Assembly: GCA_023512255.1 (NCBI GenBank)
Contig: JAILZY010000026.1
Coordinates: forward strand, 1-42,632
Source: a bacterium
GTDB lineage: Bacteria; SZUA-182; DTGQ01
Length of the DNA stretch: 42,632 nt
Direction: 5' to 3'
Under the pieces are notes generated by a model. The model made no database searches. It was not told the DNA's origin and saw only the letters and a program-made list of their open reading frames with translations. Shown here piece after piece: positions 6,225-39,289 of this stretch. A program made the translations under genes and the position numbers. How positions within the stretch are numbered: position 1 is the stretch's first letter; every line of letters begins with the position of its first letter.

Positions 6225-7642
6225 AAAGTTCCTCGATGGTGAAATTCATATCTTCAGCAGCTCTTTTTTTGGCCGGACTGATACTCTGTTTTCTCCTCAA
6301 AACATCATCTGCCCAGGTGGGCTCACCTCCTGAGGACAATAACGACCTGCACCGGCAAGCCCTAGCGGCTAAGCAGGCCGCTGACGCCTACTCGAAAAGC
6401 GGAGAGATTCAAAAGGCGATCGAGGCTTACGAGAAGGCTCTGCAACTCTATCCCGATTATGCTGATGTGTACTATCTGCTCGGTCTGATCTACGATCTGC
6501 ATCAGGGGAGGCTGGAAAAAGCCATTGCCTGTTACCAAAGATTCTTAGAGCTTGCTCCGAATGCTCCAGAGGCCAGGGATGTTCAGCTGTTGATCGAAAG
6601 TGCCAGACAGGCTCTATCAGATGCCCAGGGAATTTCGCCAAAGCCAGCAGCAGATGCCCAGGGAATATCAACAAAGCCAGCCGCCACTTTTTCCGGTACG
6701 GAGGGTAAGGATGAGGGAAAAATTCAGCCCCTGGCCGAAGGCGAGCAGAAAAATGCCGATAAGATAAATGATTATGATAAGGTAGAGGAGCAAGTAGCCG
6801 TCTCCCAAATAGGGCCAGCAACTTTCTCCAAAGATATAAAAGATGATAGCCATATAGAGCTGCATAAGGAGCTAGCTGATAGCCCACAAGAAGTTGACAA
6901 AAAAACAAAACAAAAATCATCCTTATCGGGAAAGGGCAGGTCAGCCTCAGAGGCCGGGGCTTCGGAGCAGTTCATTTCCCGCTCGATTGAGGGAAAGATT
7001 TTAAAATATACCATTAAGCTTGCCGTCTGGCAGCGAGAGGGATTCATTGACAAGTTTAATGAGCTGGCACTGGCCAGGGGGTCTTATCTGACTAATAACG
7101 TCTCGGAAGTGCGAGCCAAGCTAAGAGAGGAGAGGCAAAAGGTTACAGAATTTATCGATTATGCAAAGGAAGCAGAGCAGATGATGCTGCGACAGCTCCT
7201 CAATGAGCTGATTAAAGAATGGGGTATAGAGCTTCCCCACCTACCACAAAAGGTAGACATAGAGAAGGCGGTATCTTCTATTCAGGTTCAGGATCTTCAG
7301 GAAGATAAAAAATATATTCATCTTTCTTTGGAGGCCAAGGTTAACGCTAAAAACCTGAGAGAGCAGCTCTTGAAGCTAGGGTATCAGTTTACTCCATGCA
7401 GGGTTCATCTGCAGTGCTCTAACCTATATGGAGAATTTAAGGATAAGTTCTTTGAGGCTATTCAGCGAAAGTCAGAGTATATAAAAAGCCAGTCCGAGGG
7501 AGTGTATGAGATTTATGCACCGGCTAAACTCTTTGCTTCTGAGCTGAGCAAGATGGTTATTGGTACCTATGGGATTAGGCTTGATAAGGTAGGTGAAGAT
7601 ACTATTACCTTTAGGGCTGAAGCTGTGGAAAATGGATTTTGA
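6221..7642 (+). CDS. Membrane-anchored TPR protein with a C-terminal domain of unknown type
   Basis: This 473-residue protein has an N-terminal signal anchor (about residues 10-32). About two and a half TPR repeats follow (about 44-130, for example 'SGEIQKAIEAYEKALQLYP' and 'GRLEKAIACYQRFLELAP'). A low-complexity linker (about 130-250) contains a near-duplicate DAQGIS(P/T)KPAA. A helical, charged C-terminal region (about 255-473) was not recognised. TPR repeats bind protein partners; placement after the anchor suggests a periplasmic scaffold. The gene overlaps rpe by four bases and is the last of the rsmB operon. A consensus promoter for the cold-shock gene starts only 13 bases after its stop. 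No enzymatic motif is visible. Confidence 0.82.
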   Translation: MKSSSMVKFISSAALFLAGLILCFLLKTSSAQVGSPPEDNNDLHRQALAAKQAADAYSKSGEIQKAIEAYEKALQLYPDYADVYYLLGLIYDLHQGRLEKAIACYQRFLELAPNAPEARDVQLLIESARQALSDAQGISPKPAADAQGISTKPAATFSGTEGKDEGKIQPLAEGEQKNADKINDYDKVEEQVAVSQIGPATFSKDIKDDSHIELHKELADSPQEVDKKTKQKSSLSGKGRSASEAGASEQFISRSIEGKILKYTIKLAVWQREGFIDKFNELALARGSYLTNNVSEVRAKLREERQKVTEFIDYAKEAEQMMLRQLLNELIKEWGIELPHLPQKVDIEKAVSSIQVQDLQEDKKYIHLSLEAKVNAKNLREQLLKLGYQFTPCRVHLQCSNLYGEFKDKFFEAIQRKSEYIKSQSEGVYEIYAPAKLFASELSKMVIGTYGIRLDKVGEDTITFRAEAVENGF

Positions 7643-7654
7643 TGGTTAATTTTC

Positions 7655-7683
7655 TTGACACTAATTTCTTTTTGAGGTATAAT
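7655..7683 (+). promoter_or_regulatory. Consensus sigma-70 promoter for the cold-shock gene
   Basis: A perfect -35 TTGACA (7655-7660), a 17-base spacer and a perfect -10 TATAAT (7678-7683) are present. Transcription would start near 7690, giving a leader of about 219 bases before the ATG at 7909. Confidence 0.88.
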
Positions 7684-7689
7684 AAAGAA

Positions 7690-7908
7690 TCAAGTTTAAA
7701 ATAAAAATCCTCATAAGAGGATAAAAATACTGAGGAATAATTCCCTCATATAATTTAAGGAATTACTCCAGGGCAAAGTTTCTTTTTCCCTGGTAGAGCA
7801 TTAAGTTGTGGATAGGTTATCTGAAACTTTGGAGGCCTATAGCTTTTCCTGAGCTTTACAGAGATATCCCAACTTAAGAATTATTTTAAGAAAGGAGGGA
7901 TATTGAGT
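7690..7908 (+). promoter_or_regulatory. Long structured 5' leader of the cold-shock mRNA
   Basis: The leader runs from the predicted start near 7690 to the ATG at 7909. It can form several hairpins: ATCCTC/GAGGAT near 7707-7722, TGAGG/CCTCA near 7730-7748, and CCAGGG/CCCTGG near 7769-7794. It ends with a strong Shine-Dalgarno AGGAGG (7893-7898). E. coli cspA has a comparably long leader that acts as a temperature sensor. An analogous role here is inferred from length, position and folding potential only. Confidence 0.6.
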
Positions 7909-8115
7909 ATGGCTCAAGGACGAGTGAAATGGTTTAACGACCAAAAAGGCTTTGGTTTCATCAAGATCGCGGGTGAAGACAAAGATGTGTTTGTACACTA
8001 TACCGCCATTGCTGGCTCAGGCTTCAAAAGTCTCCAGGAAAATCAGCTTGTTGAGTTTGAAATTCAACAAGGTCCCAAAGGACCGCAGGCAATTAATGTA
8101 CGGCCACAACAGTAA
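7909..8115 (+). CDS. Cold-shock protein, CspA family
   Basis: This 68-residue single-domain OB-fold protein binds single-stranded RNA and DNA. RNP1 'KGFGFI' and RNP2 'DVFVHY' are intact, with the usual '[11 protein letters not shown]' start and '[12 protein letters not shown]' end. Length is standard for CspA proteins. ATG 7909 is preferred because AGGAGG (7893-7898) is 10 bases upstream. A TTG two codons earlier (7903) would leave only 4 bases. The gene has its own consensus promoter, a long leader and a terminator, so it is monocistronic and probably highly expressed. Confidence 0.95.
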
Positions 8116-8141
8116 TTACTTATTCTGATTGCCAATTTCGC

Positions 8142-8180
8142 AAGAGGGAGGTTCCTTACGGTTCCTCCCTCTTCCTTTTT
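8142..8180 (+). terminator. Rho-independent terminator of the cold-shock gene
   Basis: A 10-bp stem AAGAGGGAGG (8142-8151) pairs with CCTCCCTCTT (8164-8173) across a 12-base loop and is followed by a pyrimidine run CCTTTTT. Confidence 0.88.
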
Positions 8181-22158: not shown

Positions 22159-22187
22159 TTGACATTATTTGCATCTGCTATTATATT
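22159..22187 (+). promoter_or_regulatory. Sigma-70 promoter of the first methyltransferase-like gene
   Basis: TTGACA (22159-22164), a 17-base spacer and TATATT (22182-22187) are present. The position rules out the upstream TTG at 22169 as a start codon and predicts a leader of about 65 bases before ATG 22259. Confidence 0.75.
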
Positions 22188-22258
22188 TAGAAATACTGAA
22201 AATAAATTTGGCTTATTGCTTCTTTTTAACCTTCTTTTCAAATGAGAGGCTGCACAAT

Positions 22259-23119
22259 ATGAGTAATAAAATGAACAATAACTGCTCAGGAAAAAATCCT
22301 GCTGCTGTCTATCTATCTAGAATTATCGATGATCCGGTTCCGTTTTTATTCTTCGGCTCTCTAGTTAGTTTGAAGATCTATCACTTTATTGGGAAAATCG
22401 ACCTTACCACTGATTTTGTCAGCATCATGTATGGAATTGACCAGAGCATGTCTGGCATCAAGGCAATTCTATTTTCACGGCCTGTGCTAGATCTGTTCTA
22501 TACAATCACTGCCATTTTGTTTGATCTGCTGATCATCATCAGCTATCTGATTCGGGTCAAACCGGTCAGCAACCAAGGGAAAGCCAAAGGGTTTTGGGAA
22601 ATGTGGTATCCGATTATCACTGTTCTCATTCCCATGATTTCATTTACCTATCTTCTGTATCGCCCTATTCCGGTAGAAAAAGATCCGCTGTTTCGAAATC
22701 TCTACCAGTCTGCCACCTTTGTTCATAGTGTCGGCCTGGCCGGTTTTCTGCTCTCCCTGATTGGGTGCACGCTGAGCATCATTGTTCTGTGGAAGCTAAA
22801 AAATTCCTTCAGCCTAATGGTTGAGGTCAGGGAGCTGGTAACCGATGGTATGTATAAATACATGAGACATCCGCTCTATGCTGCCGAATTGACCCATGCT
22901 CTTGGCACAACCCTGCTGCTGCTGAACTCGGCCAGCATTTCAATCTACATTCTTTTCTTTACCCTAGAGGCCATCAGAGCAAAATTTGAGGAAAGAAAAC
23001 TGCTGGCAGTGATTCCCGAATATGCTGACTATAAAGCCAGAACAGGCTTTTTCTTCCCTAAATTTGGCGGTGCACCACAAAAAGCCAAATTGCACGGGGT
23101 AGCGCAAAGATCATTTTAA
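22259..23119 (+). CDS. ICMT/PEMT-like membrane methyltransferase, paralogue 1
   Basis: From ATG 22259 this polytopic protein has 286 residues and about six hydrophobic segments. The C-terminal part has the signature of the isoprenylcysteine carboxyl methyltransferase / phospholipid methyltransferase superfamily: 'LVTDGMYKYMRHPLYAAEL', then 'AKFEERKLLAVIPEYADYKARTGFFFP'. The 'RHP-Y' and 'E-R/K' elements bind S-adenosylmethionine in this fold. Bacterial members methylate diverse lipophilic substrates; the substrate here is unknown. A longer version from TTG 22169 is rejected because that codon lies inside the promoter spacer. The next gene is a diverged paralogue in the same orientation, so the pair arose by tandem duplication. 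Confidence 0.83.
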   Translation: MSNKMNNNCSGKNPAAVYLSRIIDDPVPFLFFGSLVSLKIYHFIGKIDLTTDFVSIMYGIDQSMSGIKAILFSRPVLDLFYTITAILFDLLIIISYLIRVKPVSNQGKAKGFWEMWYPIITVLIPMISFTYLLYRPIPVEKDPLFRNLYQSATFVHSVGLAGFLLSLIGCTLSIIVLWKLKNSFSLMVEVRELVTDGMYKYMRHPLYAAELTHALGTTLLLLNSASISIYILFFTLEAIRAKFEERKLLAVIPEYADYKARTGFFFPKFGGAPQKAKLHGVAQRSF

Positions 23120-23264: not shown

Positions 23265-24065
23265 ATGGGAATGGTCGCGTACATTCAGGGTATTTTTCAG
23301 ACTCTTATAGACAATTGGAGTATGATACTTCCCCTGCTCTTTTTTTCTCTCTTTATCTATTGGATCTCTCCTGAGGAGGGCCGCCAATGGATAAAAAATT
23401 ATCCTGTTCCAATCATCTTTTTCCTGATCATGTTCCTTCGGGTTCTGATAACTACCCTATTCAGTCTGAAAACACAGCTCAGTTTTCCCTCAATTCTTGG
23501 GATAGTCAACAGCCTCTTTGTGGCTATTTTCATGGGAATCGTGGTCTTCAGCTACATTATTCGATCCGCGCCAAAGAAACAAGCTCAAGGGGTGTTGGAA
23601 AGATTCTATCCGGTTTTCGTGGTGGTTTTTCACCTGATTGGAACCTCGATTCTATCTACCCATACTAAGAGCAACTATGTGCCCTGGGTGTATATTACCG
23701 GTCTCATCCTGTGTGTTAGTGGAATAACCCTAAATATCGCCTCTCTTTGGCAGCTAAAAAACTCCTTTAGCGTCATGGTCGAGGTGAGAAAGCTAGTCAA
23801 TACCGGCGTCTACCGCCTCATTCGCCACCCTCTCTACACTGGCGAACTCATTCACCTATTAGGGGTCTGCATGCTGTTCAATAATCGCTTTTCCTACCTA
23901 TTTTTTATTGTAGTTACTACCATGCAGCTTTCACGGGCCAAACTGGAAGAGCGAAAGCTGTCGATGCATCTGCCCGAATACCGTCTCTACAAACAGCAGA
24001 CAGGCTTTATCTTCCCACGGCTTGGAATCCTGTGGACGCAGTGGAGAAGGGGCGGAGGGAATTAG
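23265..24065 (+). CDS. ICMT/PEMT-like membrane methyltransferase, paralogue 2
   Basis: This 266-residue polytopic membrane protein shares a colinear core with its upstream neighbour: 'LKNSFSVMVEVRKLV' matches 'LKNSFSLMVEVRELV', and 'RHPLYTGELIHLLG' matches 'RHPLYAAELTHALG'. Both have 'AKLEERKLS'-type and 'PEY..YK..TGF.FP' endings. It therefore has the same SAM-dependent methyltransferase fold with an unknown lipophilic substrate. The N-terminal half diverges strongly, suggesting different substrates. Two ATGs (23265 and 23271) are possible; the second has GAGG at better spacing. It converges with the GT-C-like gene. Confidence 0.83.
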   Translation: MGMVAYIQGIFQTLIDNWSMILPLLFFSLFIYWISPEEGRQWIKNYPVPIIFFLIMFLRVLITTLFSLKTQLSFPSILGIVNSLFVAIFMGIVVFSYIIRSAPKKQAQGVLERFYPVFVVVFHLIGTSILSTHTKSNYVPWVYITGLILCVSGITLNIASLWQLKNSFSVMVEVRKLVNTGVYRLIRHPLYTGELIHLLGVCMLFNNRFSYLFFIVVTTMQLSRAKLEERKLSMHLPEYRLYKQQTGFIFPRLGILWTQWRRGGGN

Positions 24066-25830: not shown

Positions 25831-25967
25831 CACAATAGAGCCCCTGGCATTAACTATGCTTACCCATATGAGGAAGCAAGAAGTAGGGCTATTCCTAACC
25901 GTAGGATATAGTTTATAACTTCACAGTTGTTCTCAAAAAAATATACAATTTGAGAGAAAAATTAAAC

Positions 25968-27866
25968 ATGATCAAAGCTCGTTTGTCAAACAGAAATTGT
26001 CTAGCTAGAGTATCGAAATTCGTTTTTTCGCTTCTTTTGATATGTTCTCTCAGTTTTTATCCAGCAAAGGGTGAGTCGGCTTTTCTGCCGCCTGCCGCAC
26101 CGCCAGCTGGGATAGTTGTAGCCAATTTTCCCTCCCTCGATCTTGGCCAGTTTGCTCCCAATGAAGTTATCTTTAGAGTCAGACCGGGAGCCAATCAGGC
26201 CCAGGTCAGCAGGCTTTTGTCAAGCTATGGGATCAGAGGGGCTGAGGGAAGTATCCGAGCTGGGTTCCAGCGGGCAGTACTTGCGAGCAATAATGCCCTT
26301 GAGGTTGCCGCCCTGTTGAGCCGCGATCCGACGATCGAATATGCAGAGCCCAATTACCTGGCTAGGGCGGAATTGTTGCCAAATGATCCCTACTATAAAT
26401 ATCAATGGCATTTTCGGATGATCAATATGGAATTGGCCTGGGATCTGTCAACTGGGGCAAATGTTATTGTGGCTGTGGTCGACACCGGCGTAGCCTTTGA
26501 AAATAATGGAATTTTTGCCCAAGCACCTGATCTTGCCGGCACTCGCTTTGCTCCAGGTTGGGATTTTGTCAATGACGATGCCTATCCAGATGATGATAAT
26601 GGACACGGCACCCATATGGCCGGAACAATTGCCCAGACGACCAATAATCTCTTGGGAGTGGCTGGAGTAGCTCATGGATGTACCATCATGCCGGTCAAGG
26701 TGCTAGACAGTGCCAGCAACGGATTGTTCAGCGATATCGCCGACGGAATTTATTATGCGGTCAACAATGGAGCCAAAATCATCAATATCAGTTTCGGCAC
26801 CTATACTGCTTCGGTAACTCTTGAGAATGCAATTGCTTATGCCTACCAGAACGGAGTGAGTGTCATCACCTCGGCGGGAAATAATGCCACAAGCATTCCT
26901 CACTACCCATCATCATATCCCACCTGCGTGTGTGTCAGTGCGGTTCGATATGACCGGACCCGTCCGTTTTATTCTAACTATGGCCCGGATATTGATGTTT
27001 GCGCTCCGGGGGGTGATCTTTCCGTTGATCAAAACCTCGATGGCTACCAAGATGGCATCTGTCAGCAAACCCATAACGGAAAGATCTACTACCAGTTCAA
27101 TTATGCCCTCTACCAGGGAACCTCATGCGCGGCAGCCCATACTTCGGGTGTGGCTGCTCTGGTTCAATCCGTAGCCGCAAATACCTTAAGTCCTGACGCC
27201 CTGAAAACCCTGCTTGAGACCACAGCCGTGGACCTTGGCCCTGTGGGCTGGGATCAAGACTTTGGCTGGGGGCTGATCGATGCTCTAGCTGCGGTTCAGG
27301 CTGCTCTACCTCCACCTGCGGCAGCAGCAGTAGCAGGCGCTCTTCTGCCCTGGCCACTAGCGGCAGATCCTTTCTTGAATCCAGGGCTAGTAGTTACTCA
27401 GAATCCAGCGCTAGTGGCTACTCAGCCATATTCCCCGGCTCCGTTATTCAGCCTTGGGCTGATAGATCTTGCCCTGGGTGAATTAGCTAACTCTCTTATC
27501 TGGTCAGAAATTTTAAACCTTTCTTCTCTGGCTGGAGGAGGTTCAAAGACTAGAACACTATCAACTTTGGCTATCTCAGGATCACCTTTGGCCATCTCAG
27601 GCAGCAGCCTGCCGCTCGCCATGATGCGGATGAAGGATCCCCTGACGGCGGTGCAGGGTTTGGCCTGGCAGCCTGCTGAAAGTCCTCTTCAGCAGCAGAT
27701 ATGGCTTTTTAGGCCGCAGAATCAGGGATTGGCCTGGGAAAATCCCCTGGTCAGTCAACTATCCCTGGTTGTTAATCCTTTATCGTTGCTGATAAGTCCA
27801 CTATCAATTTTAGGAAATCCGGTATCAGTGATCCAGTTTCCCTCGTATTCATATACCGGATCTTAA
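25968..27866 (+). CDS. Exported subtilisin-family (S8) serine protease with low-complexity tail
   Basis: From ATG 25968 (632 residues) the protein has a signal peptide (about 12-37) and an N-terminal prodomain (about 60-135) of the fervidolysin/I9 type ('NEVIFRVRPGANQAQVSRLL', 'EYAEPNYL'). The S8 catalytic domain (about 145-455) follows, with Asp172 in 'VVDTGV', His213 in 'GHGTHMAG', oxyanion Asn305 in 'SAGNN' and Ser386 in 'GTSCAAAHTSG'. The triad is complete, so an active secreted endopeptidase is expected. The last 170 residues are a non-catalytic Leu/Pro/Ala/Ser-rich tail with short repeats ('NPALVATQ', 'PLAISGS'), possibly for surface attachment. TTG 25950 is an alternative start. A strong Shine-Dalgarno sequence just after the stop has no associated start codon. 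Confidence 0.93.
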   Translation: MIKARLSNRNCLARVSKFVFSLLLICSLSFYPAKGESAFLPPAAPPAGIVVANFPSLDLGQFAPNEVIFRVRPGANQAQVSRLLSSYGIRGAEGSIRAGFQRAVLASNNALEVAALLSRDPTIEYAEPNYLARAELLPNDPYYKYQWHFRMINMELAWDLSTGANVIVAVVDTGVAFENNGIFAQAPDLAGTRFAPGWDFVNDDAYPDDDNGHGTHMAGTIAQTTNNLLGVAGVAHGCTIMPVKVLDSASNGLFSDIADGIYYAVNNGAKIINISFGTYTASVTLENAIAYAYQNGVSVITSAGNNATSIPHYPSSYPTCVCVSAVRYDRTRPFYSNYGPDIDVCAPGGDLSVDQNLDGYQDGICQQTHNGKIYYQFNYALYQGTSCAAAHTSGVAALVQSVAANTLSPDALKTLLETTAVDLGPVGWDQDFGWGLIDALAAVQAALPPPAAAAVAGALLPWPLAADPFLNPGLVVTQNPALVATQPYSPAPLFSLGLIDLALGELANSLIWSEILNLSSLAGGGSKTRTLSTLAISGSPLAISGSSLPLAMMRMKDPLTAVQGLAWQPAESPLQQQIWLFRPQNQGLAWENPLVSQLSLVVNPLSLLISPLSILGNPVSVIQFPSYSYTGS

Positions 27867-27872
27867 ATAAAA

Positions 27873-27962
27873 AAGGAGGTGATAATACATCTTACTTAAA
27901 TTTTTTCAACCGGTGATTATACCTTGGGGGCATCTTGCGCCTGCAAGGCAGAAAAATCACCT
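27873..27962 (+). promoter_or_regulatory. Leader with orphan Shine-Dalgarno and competing GGTGAT/ATCACC pairings
   Basis: A perfect 11-base complement to the 16S rRNA 3' end, AAGGAGGTGAT (27873-27883), follows the protease stop with no ATG, GTG or TTG at usable distance. GGTGATT (27912-27918) can pair with AATCACC (27955-27961), enclosing CCTTG/CAAGG and CTGC/GCAG stems. The first AGGTGAT (27877-27883) could pair with the same ATCACCT instead. This could be a two-state leader of the GLYG gene; the role is inferred. Confidence 0.45.
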
Positions 27963-28013: not shown

Positions 28014-28748
28014 ATGCGTTTTTCTAGGGTTAGGGTAGTAATTGCAGTTTCTGTCTTGTTATTTGCTCTGATTGGTTCTTCGGCGAATAAAGCAGATGCT
28101 TATTATGGTTTGGGCGGCTTGTATGGTTATGGTGGTCTTTACGGCGGACTCTACGGCGGGCTCTATGGTGGCCTCTACGGGATGTATGGCGGGCTCTACG
28201 GCGGATACGGACTCTACGGCGGCCTCTACGGTGGACTCTATGGCGGATACGGACTCTATGGTGGCCTCTATGGTGGACTCTACGGCATGTATGGTGGGCT
28301 CTATGGCCTTGGCGGACTCTATGGCGGCCTCTACGGCATGTACGGCGGGCTCTATGGCCTTGGCGGACTCTATGGCCTGGGCGGTCTGAGATATGGCCTG
28401 GCCGAGCAGGCTGGGACCTGGCAAGGCCTCTGGTCTTCAGGGCTTGTCTCTGGGCCGATGACCCTAAACCTGGTTCAGGATCCGCTCCTTGGTACCCTAT
28501 CCGGTTATGTACAACTGTTGGGTAATCCCACCCTGGGCAGCCTGGTGAGTGTTACTGGATCTGTGCTCAATAACCAGATCATCCTCTCCGGCTCAGGTAT
28601 CGGCCTCGGTACCATGACCTTCACTATTGATATCGTCGGTACCATGACCTCTACTACCACCATGACCGGAACCTATACCTTGACTAACAGCACTTCGCTG
28701 GTAGAAACCGGAAGTTTCAATCTCAGTCTGCTGACTCCGGTTATCTAA
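28014..28748 (+). CDS. Exported Gly-Leu-Tyr-Gly repeat protein 1
   Basis: This 244-residue protein has a signal peptide (about 1-29, ending 'NKADA'). Residues 31 to about 127 consist almost only of Gly, Leu, Tyr and a few Met in units such as GGLYG, GMYGG and GYGLYGG. From about 131 a different beta-rich domain follows ('EQAGTWQGLWSSG', 'PMTLNLVQDPLLGTLSGY', 'TTMTGTYTL'). This domain recurs in the next gene. Aromatic Gly repeats are known in structural proteins such as silks, cuticle and eggshell proteins, so an extracellular fibre or matrix role is inferred. GGAAGGAG sits about 9 bases upstream of ATG 28014. No family is recognised; gene reality is strongly supported by frame-specific repeats. 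Confidence 0.85.
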   Translation: MRFSRVRVVIAVSVLLFALIGSSANKADAYYGLGGLYGYGGLYGGLYGGLYGGLYGMYGGLYGGYGLYGGLYGGLYGGYGLYGGLYGGLYGMYGGLYGLGGLYGGLYGMYGGLYGLGGLYGLGGLRYGLAEQAGTWQGLWSSGLVSGPMTLNLVQDPLLGTLSGYVQLLGNPTLGSLVSVTGSVLNNQIILSGSGIGLGTMTFTIDIVGTMTSTTTMTGTYTLTNSTSLVETGSFNLSLLTPVI

Positions 28749-28847
28749 ATGATAAGGGAATTCTAGCTAGTGCTTATAAAACAGGCGCTGGCTGATTCCG
28801 GTTATCCAAGAGGTATCATAAATGAGCTGATTTTTCAGAATGTTCGA

Positions 28848-28889
28848 GAGGGTAGCCAGCAGGAATTAATGCTGCTTGGCTACCCCCTC
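28848..28889 (+). terminator. Strong hairpin after GLYG gene 1
   Basis: GAGGGTAGCCAGCA (28848-28861) pairs with TGCTGCTTGGCTACCCCCTC (28870-28889), with bulges. It lies about 100 bases after the stop; a T-rich region follows from about 28910. It likely ends the GLYG-1 transcript. A 67-codon ORF crossing it is rejected. Confidence 0.65.
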
Positions 28890-29067
28890 CTCAAATTACC
28901 GTATTATGCGTTTGTTTATTTATTTTATGTATGTATTTCGTGCTATGGGTTTATTTGTGTATTTATTGATTGAATAGTCAATTTGTTATGCTCACTGGGT
29001 GGTCCTGGTAGCAAGAATAAATTGTGGATCGTGTGTGTTTTACGGTTCAAAGAAGGGAAAGTGTGTG

Positions 29068-30432
29068 ATGAAAGAAGATCTTGGAAAGTTGTGGTTAATA
29101 AAAGCCTGCCTATCGTATCTGTTGATATTCTGCCTGATTATCGCTCTCTCCCGGCCAACTGAAGGATACTTCAGCACCTCAAGCGGACTGTTAGGCAGTA
29201 CCATCTACAGTGGCGCCAGCAACTTATACAACAATAGTCTCTATACCGGCAGCGGCTTAAGTGGCTTATCCAGCGGATTGGGCGGTATGTATGGGTTAGG
29301 CGGCTTATATGGCAGTCTTTACGGTAGCAGTCTGTACGGCGGCCTCTACGGCAGCAGCCTATATGGTTATGGCGGTCTGGGAAGAATGTATGGTTTAGGT
29401 GGACTATACGGCTTGGGCGGACTCTATGGCAGCAGCTTATACGGCAGCAGCCTGTATGGAGGACTCTATGGCAGCAGCCTCTACGGCGGCATGTTTGGCC
29501 TGGGTGGCCTATATGGCGGCATGTTTGGCCTGGGCGGTATGTACAGCGGCCTGCTCGGGCTGGGTGGCTTAGGCGGACTCTATGGCAGCAGCCTCTACGG
29601 CGGCACCTATGGTGCTCTGGGTGGCCTGAGCAGTCTGGGAGGACTCGGCGGACTCTACGGCCTTGGTGGCATGTATGGAGGTCTAGGCATGATGGGGATG
29701 ACGAATCCTCTGCTGGCTGGCCTGGGTGGGCTTACGCCAACGACCACCACGACCACCACTACGGCCCCAGCTCCGGCAGCTCCCACTGCGGCAATTTCTG
29801 CCGAGCAGTTTGCCGGCTCATGGACTGGCACCTGGTATCTTGGTTTCCTGTTTGCTGATATGACCCTGACCCTGGTTGAAGATCCTCTGACTGGATTCCT
29901 CAGCGGAACAGCCACGCTCTTTGGAAATGCAGCTATCCCAACTCCGGTTACGGTCTATGGTACCTCAACTCCATACTCGGTTACGCTAAGCGGGATTAAT
30001 GCTACTGGCACCTATGCCCTCCAGATCAGCGGAACCCTGACCAGTCCGACCACCATGACCGGGACCTGGAGTATTGTCAGCGTATCCACCGGTCTGCCGG
30101 TAAAAACGCTGGGAGTTACTCAGACAGGAACCTTTGATCTCACCCTGACGGTCTTCCCAACGGTCGCCGCTCCTGTTGTCGCTCCAGCACCAATAGTGAC
30201 GCCTACCGTGGTCGCTGCGCCGATTGCTCCTACCGTGGTCGCTCCGGTTGTGCCTACGATTGTTGCGCCGCCAGTTGTACCTACGGTGGTGGCTGCTCCT
30301 GTTGTTGCTCCAACACCGGTAGTTACGCCTACTGTGGTCGCCGCGCCGATTGCTCCTACCGTGGTTGCGCCTACAGCTACCGCGGTGCCGGCTGTCGTCT
30401 CTGGCTTGCTTCCCTTCGTTCCCTTTATCTAG
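29068..30432 (+). CDS. Exported Gly-Leu-Tyr-Gly repeat protein 2
   Basis: From ATG 29068 (454 residues) the protein has a signal peptide (about 8-33, ending near 'TEGYF'). A long Gly/Leu/Tyr/Ser/Met repeat region follows (about 65-220, units GGLYGSSLYG and GGMFGLGG), then a Thr linker (about 225-235). The beta-rich domain shared with GLYG protein 1 is at about 246-365 ('EQFAGSWTGTWYLG', 'DMTLTLVEDPLTGFLSG', 'TTMTGTW'). A tail of Val/Ala/Pro repeats (about 366-445, VVAAPIAPTVVAP) ends hydrophobic. The tail resembles cell-wall-spanning or surface-exposed Pro/Ala stalks. GTG 28999 gives a longer frame but lacks a site; GAAGGGA upstream of ATG 29068 fits. The pair is clearly a tandem duplicate that diverged in repeat type. 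Confidence 0.86.
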   Translation: MKEDLGKLWLIKACLSYLLIFCLIIALSRPTEGYFSTSSGLLGSTIYSGASNLYNNSLYTGSGLSGLSSGLGGMYGLGGLYGSLYGSSLYGGLYGSSLYGYGGLGRMYGLGGLYGLGGLYGSSLYGSSLYGGLYGSSLYGGMFGLGGLYGGMFGLGGMYSGLLGLGGLGGLYGSSLYGGTYGALGGLSSLGGLGGLYGLGGMYGGLGMMGMTNPLLAGLGGLTPTTTTTTTTAPAPAAPTAAISAEQFAGSWTGTWYLGFLFADMTLTLVEDPLTGFLSGTATLFGNAAIPTPVTVYGTSTPYSVTLSGINATGTYALQISGTLTSPTTMTGTWSIVSVSTGLPVKTLGVTQTGTFDLTLTVFPTVAAPVVAPAPIVTPTVVAAPIAPTVVAPVVPTIVAPPVVPTVVAAPVVAPTPVVTPTVVAAPIAPTVVAPTATAVPAVVSGLLPFVPFI

Positions 30433-30532: not shown

Positions 30533-30809
30533 CATACTCCCTCACCCCTCTAGCTAATTTTGGCGAATCTAAGCAGCTCCTCAGCGCAACTGTTCAATAA
30601 CCTACCACCCCTTGAGCGGAAAAGCACACTTTATTTCTCTATTTCTCTCCCCAAAAGGGAAAAGGCCGTATTTTTTTTCTGTCTAAAATACCTTCCTGTC
30701 CACCCTTCACCCCGAAGGGATTCCCCTGGTACAGAATATGCTTTGATCTTAAAGAAAAGCTCATAGTCATTGATGTTATCTCATATGAAGGGAAGAGGAG
30801 TGGCTCATT

Positions 30810-33752
30810 ATGGTTCAATGCTTTCGCCTGTTTGCTTTCCTAACTACCTTGCTACCTGTATTGATTTTCGCTTGGGGAGTGATTTTGTGGGATAATCCTG
30901 CCTATGCTCTATTTCAAACCAGACAACAAGGGGAGCGAAATTTAGCTACTGGCAATTATTCAAGCCGCAAGGAGAATGTTCAAAAAGTGTCTATAAAGGA
31001 GCTGCGGAAAGATGCCTCCTGGACCTCATTTCTCTCGCGCAATGGAGAAGGATGGAATGTCCTTCAGGATCAAGCGACCCATTATCTGCGGGTCGAAGCC
31101 ACAGATTCCTCACCGAGAACTCAACGAAAGCTGAGCAGGCAGACTGTAGCAACGCAAGCGGATGATCTGGCCGAAGAAGCGAAAAAATTCATTAGGGAGA
31201 ATGAGGCGATCTTTAAGGTAAGTTGGCAGGATTTTCGGCTGGAGAAAGTTCACCAGCGTGTAGGAATATGGTATGTCAGGTTCAGCCAATATGCTCAGTC
31301 AATCCCTGTCTACGGCGGGAATCTGACTTTGCGGTATAGTAGCTCAGGTGATCTTCTCGGCTTTAGGGGAAATATCTATTCGGGGATAACCATTGAGCCC
31401 CACTCATCTTTGGATAGTCAAACCGCTATAGAGATTATAGCCAAAAGCCTTGGCCTTTCTCCTGATTCCATAACGTGCAGCCAATCGCGGCTCGTTATTT
31501 ATCCTTTTTTCGTAGAGGAGGGCAGTGAGTCAAACTCATACCTATTGTGCTGGGAAATCGAGACCACATCTCCCCAGCAGATCAGAGGGTGGAGATACTT
31601 TATCGATGCTCAGAAGGGGGAAATTATTGAAAGCTACGATCAAGCACGCTATGTGGTTTCAGGAAAAGTTCAAGGGCAGATCTTCCCTAAATATCCTGGT
31701 AAAATGATCACGGTTCCATTTCCCAATTTAAAGGTCATGCTCGCTGATAAAACATCTCCCCTTATGTATAAGAATCTCGACCAGGATCCAGGCTGGTACG
31801 GAACTTCCCTGTTTCGCTGGGAATACGGTACCCCCCTGGTAAGCTATCCCGGGACAGAGGAGGCAGACCCTGAAGCAGGCCATAGCGGATCGGCTTTCTA
31901 TGGCTATAATCTTCGCGGCAGCTACTACGAAAACCTCCCCAAGCGGGAATACCTAACCACAAAGCCAATCGCTCTGCCGCAGCAAAGTGATGGCAAACAG
32001 ATAGTGCTAAGATTCTGGCGGTGGCTTGGGGTCGAAGGATCTGGTTCAGATGAGGCTGATATCGAAATCAGCACCCTGCCCGGCAACTGGCAGGTAATCT
32101 GGTCAAATCCGAAATATCCGATCTTTGATGGAGAGTGGAAATTGATCTTCTACGATCTTTCTCCTTACCTGAGTGCTAATCAAAGTACCCTTTCTATCCG
32201 CTGGGGCATGGGGCCTACCAACAGCTTTTATAATTATTGCGGATGGAATCTCGATGATATCGGCATCTTTCGTGCTGTTCAGGGAATAACCAATGAGAGC
32301 GGAAATTTCACCTTTTCAAATGAGGCAGAGAATAATATCCTCGACCTCAGCCTTCAGGGAACCTATTTCCAGATCAAGAACCAAAAGGGTGAGGGGCTGG
32401 TCTATACCAATGGCCATATCAGCCGAAATAGCACCATAACCATTACCCTAAAAGCCACAGGCGACTACAATCCCTTAACAGATACCGGAACTATCAGTGC
32501 CTCTGATGATATTGACGAGCTGAACGCCTACTATCACGCTAACCACCTCATTGAATACCTTAAAACCCTAGATCCTAACTTTCCCGAAAATAAGGCTCTC
32601 TTCCCCGTCTCAATTACGGTACATAATACTGCCGAAAGCACCAAATCCTACTGGCGTAATGGTGACGGTATCTACCTTGGGGAAGGGGATAAGATTGAAT
32701 ATCAGGATTTTGCTCAATATTCGGATATCATTTACCATGAAGTGACTCATGCCGTAACAGACAGCATCTATGAGAGCAGCCCATCGTCCAATCCCGTTCG
32801 TTTTACTCAGTTCGATGCCATGCATGAGGCGTTTTCCGATTACTGGGCCTGCACCATCAATGATGATTCCCAGGTGGCCGATGGCGGCTTCTGGAGTCAA
32901 GGAGCTTTGCGAGACTTGGAAAATGATCTACACTACCGGCTCAATTATGGAAAAGAGCTTTATGAAAGCAGCCTCATTCTGTCAGGGGCCATGTGGAACC
33001 TTCGGAAAGAGCTTCGCCGCCGCTACGGCGAACAAGGGATCGTCATAGCCAATACCCTCTTTCTGTTAGCTACCTATGCAGAGCCAGTCACCTACCTTGA
33101 TTTTCTCCTTGATGTTCTGGCGGTCGATGAAGTTAAATATAATCGGGCCTATCGAGATCTGATCAAAGATAGCTTTGGCCGCAAAGGCATAGCTGAGCCT
33201 CCCGCCAGACCAACCTCAATCGTAGTCTCGGTTGACCGCTCCACTATCAAACTAAGCTGGGAAAAGGTTGCCGAAGCTAGCGGATATAACCTCTATTATG
33301 ATATTTCCTCGATCAGAGCCTTACAATCTGAAAGCCGCTACACCCCAGGTGGAATTCCCGGCAGCGGCGGCACAGGCGGAGGCGGTGATGGTGGAGGCAT
33401 GGACAATACCGGCGGCGGATGGGGAGGCAGCGGCAGTGATATGAATAACGGAACCTCAGGCGGAAGTAACGGAAGCAGCAGCTCGGTCAAAAATCTGGCC
33501 AACAAGATCAATGTCGGGAATGTAACCTCCTATACCCTAACTAACCTACAGAATAATACTACCTATCGGCTTCTGCTGACCGCATACAATAATTATGACG
33601 TTGAAAGCTCACCCTCGCAGGATATTTACGCTACCATAGTAGACCCAAATAGTAACAAGCCTACATATATTTATGTCCCTACGCCTGTTTCGAGCGGCTC
33701 TTCCAGCAAATCAAAAACATGCTTCATAATGACCCTGGGCAGATGGTTTTAA
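30810..33752 (+). CDS. Large exported gluzincin metalloprotease with nested beta domains and FN3
   Basis: This 980-residue protein has a signal peptide (about 5-35). An FTP/PepSY-type propeptide (about 85-275, 'IPVYGGNLTLRYSSSGDLLGF') follows. A beta-sandwich module opens 'VVSGKVQGQI' near 285 and resumes 'ITNESGNFTF' near 495; a jelly-roll-like domain (about 327-487, 'DPGWYG', 'GWNLDDIGIF') is inserted in it. The catalytic domain (about 520-795) has H643-E644-x-x-H647 in 'YHEVTHAVTD' and third ligand candidate Glu673 in 'MHEAFSDYW', as in M4/M36 gluzincins. An FN3 domain (about 797-940) is split by a Gly/Ser-rich insert (about 846-891). The last residues 'KTCFIMTLGRWF' resemble a CFI-box C-terminal motif (CFIATAAYG), altered and short. 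An active, zymogenic secreted protease is expected. Confidence 0.88.
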   Translation: MVQCFRLFAFLTTLLPVLIFAWGVILWDNPAYALFQTRQQGERNLATGNYSSRKENVQKVSIKELRKDASWTSFLSRNGEGWNVLQDQATHYLRVEATDSSPRTQRKLSRQTVATQADDLAEEAKKFIRENEAIFKVSWQDFRLEKVHQRVGIWYVRFSQYAQSIPVYGGNLTLRYSSSGDLLGFRGNIYSGITIEPHSSLDSQTAIEIIAKSLGLSPDSITCSQSRLVIYPFFVEEGSESNSYLLCWEIETTSPQQIRGWRYFIDAQKGEIIESYDQARYVVSGKVQGQIFPKYPGKMITVPFPNLKVMLADKTSPLMYKNLDQDPGWYGTSLFRWEYGTPLVSYPGTEEADPEAGHSGSAFYGYNLRGSYYENLPKREYLTTKPIALPQQSDGKQIVLRFWRWLGVEGSGSDEADIEISTLPGNWQVIWSNPKYPIFDGEWKLIFYDLSPYLSANQSTLSIRWGMGPTNSFYNYCGWNLDDIGIFRAVQGITNESGNFTFSNEAENNILDLSLQGTYFQIKNQKGEGLVYTNGHISRNSTITITLKATGDYNPLTDTGTISASDDIDELNAYYHANHLIEYLKTLDPNFPENKALFPVSITVHNTAESTKSYWRNGDGIYLGEGDKIEYQDFAQYSDIIYHEVTHAVTDSIYESSPSSNPVRFTQFDAMHEAFSDYWACTINDDSQVADGGFWSQGALRDLENDLHYRLNYGKELYESSLILSGAMWNLRKELRRRYGEQGIVIANTLFLLATYAEPVTYLDFLLDVLAVDEVKYNRAYRDLIKDSFGRKGIAEPPARPTSIVVSVDRSTIKLSWEKVAEASGYNLYYDISSIRALQSESRYTPGGIPGSGGTGGGGDGGGMDNTGGGWGGSGSDMNNGTSGGSNGSSSSVKNLANKINVGNVTSYTLTNLQNNTTYRLLLTAYNNYDVESSPSQDIYATIVDPNSNKPTYIYVPTPVSSGSSSKSKTCFIMTLGRWF

Positions 33753-34690: not shown

Positions 34691-36124
34691 TTATTCTAAC
34701 CCTGAAGTTTTTCCTAATCCTTGCAATCTGTGCTTTTTAATTTTATAGTTGATCACCCGGCTACTGATCCCAAGCAGCTTGGCTGCATCTTTCTGAACCC
34801 CGTTGCTCATCCGCAGGGCCTGTATGATCAGCTCTCGCTCAACAGCCTTCAAGCTCATCCCCTCTGGAGGCAAGATGATATGGAAGCCATTATGACGATC
34901 ATGACTTTGGCTGCTGCTCCCATAGCTACATCCAGCAGGCTCTTCAACCGCTACTTTTGGAGTATTCGGTATGAGCAAATCTTCCGGCAAAATATATTCG
35001 CCGTTGCTAACCAGCACAGCCCGCTCAATAACATTTTCCAGCTCCCGCACATTGCCCGGCCAATTATATTCTTCTAGAATGGCATAGCAGGCCGGATGAA
35101 AGCCGATCAGCTCTTTTCCCCCCTTTTTTTTATACTTATTGAAAAAATGAACAGCCAGAGGAGCGATATCCTCTTTTCTCTCCCGTAGAGGAGGAACCGT
35201 AATCGGAAGAACACTGAGCCGATAGTAGAGGTCCTGCCGGAACCTCCCCTCTTTGACCTCGGTCTGCAAATCACGATTTGTAGCTGCAATCACTCTAACA
35301 TTTACCCTGATGGTTTTGCTTCCCCCTACTCTTTCAAATTCCTGCTTCTGCAAAACCCGCAGCACCTTGGCCTGAACCGAAAGACTCATTTCCCCAACCT
35401 CATCAAGGAACAGGGTGCCGCAATTTGCCTGTTCAAATCGGCCAATTCTCAGGGTATGGGCACCGGTGAAAGCTCCCTTTTCATGGCCAAAGAGCTCACT
35501 TTCCAGCAGGTTCTCATTTAGCGTGGCACAGTTTACAGCCACAAAATTCTCCTGGCATCGCAGGCTGTTGTAATGCAAAGCCGCGGCAATCAGTTCCTTC
35601 CCGGTGCCTGTCTCGCCCTGAATAAGCACGGTGGAATCACTCTTAGCCACTTTTTTGATAAAGGAGAAAACTTCCTGAATCTTCTGGCTGACTCCAACGA
35701 TATTATCAAATTTAAAAACATACCCTTGAGTGTGAGTCAGGTAGCGGATTCTGTGATTCAACTTGATATTTTTAATCGTGTTATTGATGGTGTTGAGAAG
35801 AGAGTCGATCGTAAAACCTTTTTCCAAGACACTCCAAGTGTAGGGTTTAATGAGGTCCTTGAAGTCCTCCAGTTTGTACTTAACGAGAAGCAGGTTTACC
35901 GGCATGGCCTCATCAATCATCATGGCCAGCTCCAGGACCCGAAAGCAGCCCCGGTCAGAAAGATCGTCCCTGATGACGATCAGGTGAAATTGCTCAGCCT
36001 GGAGCATCTTGATCGCGGTTTGCCAATCGCTGGCCACAACCAGCTTTTTGTCATCTCCACCGATTCGCTGGGCTAGCTCATCAGCAAACCTATCATTCTG
36101 GTCAACCAGTAAAATCTTCCACAT
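34691..36124 (-). CDS. Sigma-54-dependent NtrC-type response regulator
   Basis: This 477-residue activator has a receiver domain (about 1-120), a sigma-54 AAA+ domain (about 140-375) and a Fis-type helix-turn-helix (about 435-475, 'LKAVERELIIQALRMSNG'). AAA+ motifs are complete: Walker A 'GETGTGKE' (170-177), the sigma-54 contact 'GAFTGA' (218-223) and Walker B 'LFLDEVGE' (238-245), so it should remodel sigma-54 RNA polymerase. The receiver is atypical: the second acidic position is Gln ('VDQND'), the Thr/Ser switch is Lys ('LLVKYK'), while the acceptor Asp53 and a Lys in 'LEKGF' remain. Phosphorylation control may be weak or different. Targets are unknown. It leads the operon with the HDOD gene. 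Confidence 0.94.
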   Translation of the reverse strand: MWKILLVDQNDRFADELAQRIGGDDKKLVVASDWQTAIKMLQAEQFHLIVIRDDLSDRGCFRVLELAMMIDEAMPVNLLLVKYKLEDFKDLIKPYTWSVLEKGFTIDSLLNTINNTIKNIKLNHRIRYLTHTQGYVFKFDNIVGVSQKIQEVFSFIKKVAKSDSTVLIQGETGTGKELIAAALHYNSLRCQENFVAVNCATLNENLLESELFGHEKGAFTGAHTLRIGRFEQANCGTLFLDEVGEMSLSVQAKVLRVLQKQEFERVGGSKTIRVNVRVIAATNRDLQTEVKEGRFRQDLYYRLSVLPITVPPLRERKEDIAPLAVHFFNKYKKKGGKELIGFHPACYAILEEYNWPGNVRELENVIERAVLVSNGEYILPEDLLIPNTPKVAVEEPAGCSYGSSSQSHDRHNGFHIILPPEGMSLKAVERELIIQALRMSNGVQKDAAKLLGISSRVINYKIKKHRLQGLGKTSGLE

Positions 36125-36520: not shown

Positions 36521-39124
36521 CTAAGGCTGAATAAGCCAGCTCGTCGCCGGAATGCTCCATCCCAAATTAGCTTGGTTAAAGGAATAGATGGCGGCTGAAA
36601 ATGGATTGAGGGAGCTACTCAGATTAAACAGGGTATTTGAGCTAAGTTGAGGAAATAGCGTAGTAAAGCTCCCTTGCCACAAAGAACTCCCTTGCCACAA
36701 AGAAGAAGTTAACCAGCTGTTCTGAAATTGAGAGCCGAACAAGCTAGCGGGCGCAGACCAGGTAGGAAACAAGCTAGGCTGGCCACCGAACCACCCGCTG
36801 GTATACGACCATCCAGAAGATAAGGCAGGAAATCCAGTCCCTGTCCCGCTCCATCCCCCGGCGCTATAGCTTGTTGGGATCCATCCCCCACTGCCGCCAG
36901 TGCTGGGAAGCGTCAGACCACCAGTGGCTGGAGGTAGCAGGCTTCCACTAGTAGGAGGTATTAGACCACCGCTAGCCGGTGGTGTTACCACCTTCTTTTC
37001 GACCGTAAAACTTACCGAGACAGTATCCTCATCTTCTCCCCCAAGGCCATCCTGATCCCCATCAAGCTTGTTGCCGACCAAATCCTGCATCTTGGAGCCA
37101 ACCACCAGGGTATAGGTTTCGCCTTCTCTCAATAAACCTGAAGGAGGAAGAGTGAAAGTTAGAATATTCCCGTCAAGATTGAGCTGTCCTGAGACTAGGT
37201 TGTGGCGAGAATCATACAGGCTGAAAAAGGCCACAGAATTCGGATCCAAAGCCTCGGAAAAGGTAATAATGATTGGGCTGTTTTTGGCTACCTTCTGAGC
37301 TGCGTTTGCGGGTGAAGTGGATACAACCCGGGGCGGATTTTCATCTCTTCTGGCGAGCCGGGCAGTGCCAGCAACCCAGATTTCATAGCGCCTTGGGTCA
37401 GGATTAATAGCTATCTTAGTTACAGGCTCGGCTGAGAGAGGATAGCCCAGCATCATCTTATTCTCATCAGCAGAATAATCTACCCATCCTAATTGACCAT
37501 CAAACCTAATCAGCCCCTTGTTAGTTCCAATCCAGATTCCCCCTGATCGCCTATCTAAAGCCACAGTGTTGACAAAGGTGTTTGGTATAAAATACGCCCA
37601 GCGGGGAGCTTCCCCTTCAGCACCTGGATCGAGCTTCAAAAGGCCAGCGCTGGTGGCTACCCATACCGTGCCCTCAGAATCAACAGCCAGATCATTAACT
37701 GTAAAGTCAACCGGCTCTCTAGCATGGATCGAATAAGCATACTGCTTCCATTCCCCATCAGCACCTAGCCGCATTACCCCATAAGGCGCAGTGCCTGCCC
37801 AGATACTGCCATCGGGGCCGATGGCTACTGCTCTGACTTGAATATCCTCAAATTCGCTATCTTCAAGCCCTCGGGGCAGGCTGTGATTTTCAACCAACTC
37901 GATCAGGCCACTGTTGGTCGTAGCGATCCAAAGATGATCCTGAGCGTCAACAGCTATCTCATTGATTTCCTCATCAGCGGGAACACCAATTTGCCCAGCG
38001 CTAAGAGATGACCACCCTTGCCCATCAAATTTCGCCAACTTCGGAACTGTGTACGGATCATCTACTGAACCTGCATCATTAAGAGCAACCCATACCTGAC
38101 CGCGACTGTCAACTGCTATGGCCGTGGCGCTGTCACTGCCTAAACCATCTGCCGAAGTATACTGCCGCCAGCCGCTACCATCAAACATCTTAACGCCCCC
38201 ACTTCGGCCATCTGAGCCTTTTCGCAAGGCTAACCAAAGATGATCCTGCTGGTCGATCACCATAGCAGCCAAATCAGGCAGATCCTCAGCCTCAATAGAC
38301 CAGTGTCGGTCCGGCAATCTCATGGTAGTGAATGAGTAAGACTGCTCAAGGCTATTGTGCACGTAATCTTCTACATAAATAGAAACAGTAACTCTTTCGC
38401 CATACCCGAAAGGAACAGCCGGAGAGTAGACAACCTCTAACTCCTTCGCCGATATCGGATTAAGCGCAGGAGTTATTTGCTGCCCATTGATTTTCAATAC
38501 CAAAGAGCTAGGATTAACCCCGGCATTATTATCCTTGATATTAAACTTAAACTCAGATAGACAAGAAATTTCTCCCCCTTCTGAGGAAGGTGAAAAATCA
38601 GTAATCTCAGGAGCCAGCGTATCGGCCACAGTAACAAAATACCACAGGATATCTCCTTCTCCCTCAGACAGCATCTCCTGGATACCCTGTAATTTGAGAC
38701 CATCAGTATCAGTGGCTTGCCTGCTCACCACTACCTGATAGACCGAGCCCTCGGCTAGAAAAGCTGAGGGCGTAAAGGTAAAGACTCTGCCCTCAACCTT
38801 ACACGATCCTTCAACCAAAATTCGGGTGCCAGCTCCACTGATCCGATACAAGGCAAAGGCAGAGCAGGTCGCAGCCTGATTCATATCTTTACTGAAGGTG
38901 ATGCGAATAATTTGAGATATTGGCACCTCCTCCTGTGGAGGATAAATAGCAGGCTCTGCTCCTACAATCACCGGGCCAATCGATGAGGCCGACGACAAAG
39001 AAGTAACCGAAAGCCCACCGCTTGCAGCCTGAGAGGCTGATAGCCTTCCTACCCCAAGCAAACTGAAGGCTAAAAACAAAAAAATAGCAAGACATATAAA
39101 TTTTAATTCTTTTTTATACTTCAT
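36521..39124 (-). CDS. Exported protein with SbsA Ig-like domains, beta-propeller and G/S/W-rich tail
   Basis: From ATG 39124 (867 residues) it has a signal peptide (about 7-33). An SbsA-type Ig-like domain (Big_5, about 45-165, 'IIRITFSKDMNQAATCSAF') is followed by a second beta domain (about 170-270). A two-component-regulator-type propeller (about 275-600) repeats 'AIAVDSRGQVWVAL' and 'DLAVDSEGTVWVATSAGLLK'. A second SbsA domain (about 605-715, 'PPRVVSTSPANAAQKVA') precedes a Gly/Ser/Trp/Pro-rich tail (about 715-867). Such propellers are usually sensor ectodomains; here there is no transmembrane helix or kinase, so it probably works as a free surface protein. The longer start (39142) places the AGGAG site inside the gene, so 39124 is preferred. 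Confidence 0.87.
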   Translation of the reverse strand: MKYKKELKFICLAIFLFLAFSLLGVGRLSASQAASGGLSVTSLSSASSIGPVIVGAEPAIYPPQEEVPISQIIRITFSKDMNQAATCSAFALYRISGAGTRILVEGSCKVEGRVFTFTPSAFLAEGSVYQVVVSRQATDTDGLKLQGIQEMLSEGEGDILWYFVTVADTLAPEITDFSPSSEGGEISCLSEFKFNIKDNNAGVNPSSLVLKINGQQITPALNPISAKELEVVYSPAVPFGYGERVTVSIYVEDYVHNSLEQSYSFTTMRLPDRHWSIEAEDLPDLAAMVIDQQDHLWLALRKGSDGRSGGVKMFDGSGWRQYTSADGLGSDSATAIAVDSRGQVWVALNDAGSVDDPYTVPKLAKFDGQGWSSLSAGQIGVPADEEINEIAVDAQDHLWIATTNSGLIELVENHSLPRGLEDSEFEDIQVRAVAIGPDGSIWAGTAPYGVMRLGADGEWKQYAYSIHAREPVDFTVNDLAVDSEGTVWVATSAGLLKLDPGAEGEAPRWAYFIPNTFVNTVALDRRSGGIWIGTNKGLIRFDGQLGWVDYSADENKMMLGYPLSAEPVTKIAINPDPRRYEIWVAGTARLARRDENPPRVVSTSPANAAQKVAKNSPIIITFSEALDPNSVAFFSLYDSRHNLVSGQLNLDGNILTFTLPPSGLLREGETYTLVVGSKMQDLVGNKLDGDQDGLGGEDEDTVSVSFTVEKKVVTPPASGGLIPPTSGSLLPPATGGLTLPSTGGSGGWIPTSYSAGGWSGTGTGFPALSSGWSYTSGWFGGQPSLFPTWSAPASLFGSQFQNSWLTSSLWQGSSLWQGSFTTLFPQLSSNTLFNLSSSLNPFSAAIYSFNQANLGWSIPATSWLIQP

Positions 39125-39289
39125 TATCTCTCCTTTCATCATCCTAACTCCTTAGTATGGCAATTACCCATGAGACAACACCTTAATAAGGATAGATTAG
39201 CATACTATCTTTCCGATTTATTCCATCCCTCCCTTCTATGGTTTATCAGCTATCAAGATAAGAAATTACCAAAATAACATAAAAAATTA

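Follow-up and report, generated by a model that had tools for sequence, protein, structure and literature searches.

The window analysed here is the whole 42,632-nt stretch of contig JAILZY010000026.1 (assembly GCA_023512255.1; GTDB lineage Bacteria; SZUA-182; DTGQ01). It carries two genes on the same strand whose products, proteins 1 and 2, end in or near a common domain roughly 115 residues long. The genes, their parts and the surrounding features are as follows.

25,845–25,860, + strand: sigma-54-like -24/-12 site TGGCATTAACTATGCT, upstream of the S8 gene, 1 mismatch to the pattern
25,950–27,866, + strand: S8 (subtilisin-type) secreted protease, directly upstream of protein 1; TTG start mechanically, ATG 25,968 likely
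27,874–27,881, + strand: leader element AGGAGGTG, 140 nt upstream of the protein 1 start, away from the start codon
28,014–28,748, + strand: protein 1 (ORF1), 244 aa, ATG start; signal peptide, GLYG-rich chain and C-terminal barrel
Protein 1, residues 1–29: predicted signal peptide, ending ..NKADA|YYGLGG
Protein 1, residues about 30–127: GLYG-rich chain, 47% G, 22% L, 26% Y
28,395–28,745, + strand: protein 1 barrel domain, 8 predicted strands, pLDDT 90.4, pTM 0.82; nearest fold, streptavidin monomer
28,999–30,432, + strand: protein 2 (ORF2), mechanical ORF, GTG start, 477 aa
29,068–30,432, + strand: protein 2 from its inferred start, ATG 29,068, 454 aa
29,797–30,156, + strand: protein 2 barrel domain, 8 predicted strands, pLDDT 88.9, pTM 0.80; nearest folds, avidin family
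30,727–30,742, + strand: sigma-54-like -24/-12 site TGGTACAGAATATGCT, upstream of the M4 gene, 1 mismatch to the pattern
30,810–33,752, + strand: M4 (thermolysin-type) secreted metalloprotease with fn3, directly downstream of protein 2
34,691–36,124, - strand: sigma-54-dependent transcription activator (Sigma54_activat and Fis HTH)

ATG 29,068 is probably the true start of protein 2, since the conserved start, the signal peptide and the residue numbers used in a preliminary description of this DNA all fit it. From there the protein runs through a signal peptide, a GLYG/S-rich chain, a Thr-run/Ala-Pro linker and the barrel to a Val/Ala/Pro-rich C-terminal tail. Export signals here and throughout the family were recognised by eye and hydropathy, as N-terminal basic/hydrophobic/A-x-A segments, rather than by a dedicated predictor.

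The sister species keeps the order S8 protease, protein 1, protein 2, M4 protease, HDOD, sigma-54 activator, and there the protein 1/protein 2 pair occurs twice between the same flanking proteases, on two contig ends (L071 and L072; end of G001:C87 and start of C5), in what appears to be a tandem duplication across a contig break. A relative of the activator adjoins other GLYG genes. In the window's own genome (G000), 3 of 7 S8 genes (P 0.003) and both M4 genes (2/2, P 0.002) lie within 3 kb of a GLYG or barrel gene; the majority of barrel genes lie next to no protease, and the linkage holds for a minority of loci. Elsewhere in the window, adjacent related membrane methyltransferase-like genes (22,169–23,119 and 23,265–24,065, the first matching ICMT/PEMT) also accompany the locus in the sister species, and a protein that looks secreted and carries Big_5 domains and propeller repeats of the two-component-regulator type (36,521–39,142) is likewise conserved beside it.

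The C-terminal domains of proteins 1 and 2 are 41% identical, and both agree with the preliminary description in where they begin and end, in the opening G-x-W-x-G-x-W and in the closing TTMTGT(Y/W). Neither protein had a Pfam match at E ≤ 1 or an NCBIfam match, and a 20-member profile of the domain found no credible match among PDB sequences. AlphaFold2, run on a six-row alignment of the window sequences and related loci, returned confident 8-stranded barrels of the same topology for both (pLDDT 90 and 89, the latter the top of a range of 72 to 89 across five models for the protein 2 domain). Foldseek against the PDB ranked streptavidin and other avidins at the top for both (TM about 0.5–0.7, 15–24% identity), with NHBA-C, lipocalins and designed barrels scoring as well. 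The all-beta, calycin- or avidin-like character proposed for the domain is thus borne out by the models, as is the expectation that its two copies would prove comparable, and no named family emerged from Pfam, NCBIfam or PDB sequences.

The models share with avidin, streptavidin and other calycin-type barrels the 8-stranded meander, the G-x-W start and a TTxxGxY strand. The likeness does not extend to detectable sequence homology: hhalign gave a probability of 0.4% between a 67-member profile and streptavidin plus avidin, whose sequences were written from general knowledge for this comparison. The only conserved tryptophans of the barrel family, W9 and W13, both lie in strand 1; the biotin-site tryptophans of later strands are absent, and no conserved set of pocket residues was apparent beyond the Gly/Trp/Tyr positions of the fold. 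Unlike avidin and streptavidin, the barrel also heads a low-complexity protein at its C-terminal side. The Pfam, hhalign and tryptophan results do not support placing it in the avidin family; the predicted fold is avidin/calycin-like, and by the sequence searches the barrel is an unnamed family.

That family is large. The profile search found 21 copies of the domain in the window's own genome (3.83 Mb, 172 contigs), 26 in the sister species, 9 and 4 in two other genera of the family and 7 in another family of the order, giving 67 relatives in 5 genomes, which are all five genomes of the order. Searches of four further class genomes, of viral contigs and of the scored candidates (at most 11 per genome) from about 377 more distant genomes did not find the domain. 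A search of further genome contigs gave a single relative, in the cold-seep MAG CSMAG_150, related at family level (catalogue paper PMC10491686). All complete members read show an export signal, a low-complexity chain and a barrel; the chain is mostly GLYG, in some members Tyr/Pro/Thr-rich (YPTYPT) and in others Pro/Ala-rich.

Reciprocal best matches paired 21 of 21 own paralogs 1:1 with an ortholog in the sister species. Between orthologs the barrels are 69–92% identical and the linkers 25–79%, with changed linker lengths; linker composition nevertheless correlates at 0.75–0.94 (G 0.93, L 0.87, Y 0.79), and barrel dN/dS is 0.04–0.19 (20 pairs). The barrel is under purifying selection, the linker is conserved in composition rather than in length, and the barrel proteins form an extensive paralog family of long standing, kept by selection and restricted to the order. 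At one locus (L109:6266-7144 and 7303-8154, G000:C118), adjacent genes encode different barrels and an identical long GLYG region, reflecting either gene conversion or short-read misassembly.

Within GLYG units, codon differences are restricted to third or synonymous positions, which indicates that selection maintains the protein sequence and not a DNA repeat. Together with the 67 relatives and the low barrel dN/dS, this places the shared architecture beyond chance. A DNA pattern for GLYGGLYG had 115 matches in the own genome and 98 in the sister species; the other members of the order had 12, 2 and 20, and the four class sisters none. About 377 other genomes yielded one match, a Phe variant. 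GLYG chains are confined to secreted proteins, and matches outside the barrel genes revealed at least 12 further GLYG proteins without a barrel in the own genome. The preliminary description covered two proteins; the system to which they belong comprises more than 30 secreted GLYG or barrel proteins in that genome.

Several barrel-less GLYG proteins, and two own barrel proteins, carry a second conserved module (SPFGLQNMYY..GLTYQVPFLQIAPLLGIAGLYNSLFPNLFN; consensus SPFGLQNMYYxIxTGxGLTYQVPFLQIAPLLGIAGLYxSLFPxLFN), present in 4 of 9 class genomes at L002, L006, L133, L141, L146, L147 and other loci. One barrel-less protein with this module bears a CxxCH (c-heme-like) motif in a conserved C-terminal segment, has no Pfam match and is kept in three genomes, and a large adhesin-like protein ends in GLYG:

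L147:6237-6986 (G000:C157), L133:5801-6607 (G002:C11) and G001:C6:98446-98877: CxxCH GLYG protein
L145:1219-4497 (G000:C122): cohesin and HYR adhesin-like protein, 1092 residues, with a short C-terminal GLYG tail

Four barrel-less GLYG genes also stand in tandem at L146:2648-5363 (G000:C146).

The leaders of these genes are enriched in predicted sigma-54-type promoter sites and in an upstream Shine-Dalgarno element. Sites of the -24/-12 type (GG-N10-GC, oriented, upstream) precede 22 of 76 GLYG/barrel genes and 8 of 248 other genes. This scoring was fixed after the motif had been noticed and the orthologs among the 76 genes are not independent, for which a reverse-strand control (0/76) and the figure for the own genome alone (10/32 versus 5/102, p=2e-4) are a partial guard. 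Such sites reach only about a third of the GLYG/barrel genes, and proteins 1 and 2 have no good one directly upstream. The two sites listed above before the protease genes are notable only by position and strand, as the window-wide count is at chance. In 22 of 76 GLYG/barrel genes, protein 1 and its ortholog included, and in 8 of 248 others, a perfect Shine-Dalgarno AGGAGGTG precedes the start codon by 75–255 nt; in the sister-species ortholog of protein 1 it lies 128 nt upstream. Its placement resembles that of STAB-SD 5' mRNA stabilisers (PMC4113751). No leader matched Rfam, and a riboswitch was rejected on that basis.

Searches of the available literature found no described bacterial protein of this kind. 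In a squid ring teeth protein (suckerin), the soft segment reads YGYGGLYGGLYGGLGY (PMC4555047), near-identical to ..YGYGGLYGGLYGGLYGG.. in protein 1, which contains its first 14 residues exactly. Suckerins and GLYG chains alike are rich in Gly and Tyr, uncharged and secreted, and sequence comparison finds the GGLYG soft segments of suckerins here as well. Suckerin hardness, however, comes from beta-sheet-forming (Ala/His/Thr-rich) modules, none of which was seen by eye in the proteins read; these have a folded barrel instead. The likeness is presumably convergent. The GLFG repeats of nucleoporins are likewise uncharged GL(aromatic)G sequences, and changing GLFG to GLYG in Nup98 lowers the saturation concentration below detection, so that the GLYG version phase-separates more readily in vitro (PMC9918544). 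Nucleoporins differ in forming an intracellular eukaryotic transport barrier and in their far lower motif density, about 1 per 12 residues. By analogy with both systems, strong cohesion of the bacterial chains is likely, and the Tyr/Gly self-assembly suggested in the preliminary description is well motivated by experiments on near-identical sequences (PMC4555047, PMC9918544). In overall plan the proteins recall the neisserial heparin-binding antigen (NHBA), an exported protein in which a disordered N-terminal part precedes an antiparallel barrel of 8 strands (PMC6104945; Foldseek TM about 0.6). NHBA differs in being a lipoprotein and in having an Arg-rich site for heparin; by eye, proteins 1 and 2 and the GLYG members read have Gly/Tyr-rich chains, no lipobox Cys (signal peptides end A-x-A-like or E-G) and no Arg-rich heparin-binding segment, the linkers being almost free of Arg.

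Taken together, we consider it about an even call that these are Sec-exported structural proteins of a cohesive extracellular material or a coat, at the cell surface or in a matrix, in one uncultured order, with the barrels as heads. We infer by analogy that the chains assemble into such a material. Once exported and freed of its signal peptide, the Gly/Leu/Tyr chain, which is uncharged, would condense with those of the paralogs, barrel-less GLYG proteins among them, to give a gel-like cohesive phase held by Tyr/Leu/Gly contacts, which tyrosine cross-links might fix at a later stage. The barrel would remain folded and soluble as a head group that limits aggregation and attaches the material to a partner, be it a glycan, other barrels or the cell; its earlier designation as an anchor or nucleator is a guess. 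Neighbouring S8 and M4 proteases could mature or remodel the material, while sigma-54 activators would switch the genes on and stabilised mRNAs would give high output. If GLYG supplies the cohesion common to these proteins, its presence on barrel-less secreted proteins and on the tail of the cohesin/HYR protein would follow. Counted against this reading are the several family members whose chains are Pro/Tyr/Thr- or Pro/Ala-rich, so that GLYG is not universal, the absence of the beta-sheet modules that harden suckerins, the minority protease linkage and the lack of a good sigma-54 site at protein 1.

The same barrels might instead be calycin- or avidin-like receptors for small molecules or glycans, held off the cell by a chain that is merely a flexible spacer. 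We regard this as unlikely, though it draws on a fold that resembles avidins, lipocalin-like and NHBA-type barrels, on about 20 paralogs whose barrels have diverged while each is conserved between species, as would fit ligand diversification, and on the varying kind of chain among paralogs. A spacer need not be 25% Tyr, uncharged or constant in composition, some proteins have a GLYG chain but no barrel, and the barrels lack both the biotin-site Trp and an evident conserved set of pocket residues beyond the fold positions. M4 and S8 proteases beside some of the genes, and the fact that known protease inhibitors share the 8-stranded barrel type, would suit a barrel that guards the chain or the cell from those proteases, as the serralysin inhibitor Inh does; with Pfam giving no credible match to Inh or to any other family, and most barrel genes standing apart from any protease, this seems very improbable.

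That the barrel exports, sorts or assembles low-complexity cargo across the outer membrane, in the manner of a C-terminal sorting domain, is a reading we find improbable. It would account for the way in which most members end in the conserved domain and vary in the part before it, yet protein 2 and several others carry long tails past the barrel, and many barrel-less GLYG proteins look exported. No enzyme or other folded cargo was fused to the barrel in any of the 67 members, and a general sorting signal was rejected on this ground. We give almost no credence to the GLYG chains being selectively neutral, functionless low-complexity expansions: their lengths do change freely between sister species, but variation inside the units is synonymous only, composition is kept across orthologs, and the chains are confined to secreted proteins, with 115 exact sites in the own genome against none in the class sisters.

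The cohesive-material reading may extend further. Tentatively, the whole order could have a dedicated, sigma-54-controlled extracellular polymer system of more than 30 secreted proteins, in which GLYG chains, convergent with squid ring teeth, form one cohesive phase and different heads are plugged in, namely about 20 diverged avidin-like barrels, the CxxCH-bearing domain and the cohesin/HYR adhesin. If true, this would be a bacterial and genetically compact counterpart, by function and not by descent, of the cohesive proteins of squid teeth and nucleoporins, with natural modular heads. It would be a possible source of new Gly/Tyr biomaterials as well as of an unnamed barrel family, and would suggest that this uncultured order, which counts a cold-seep genome among its members, has a surface structure of a new kind.
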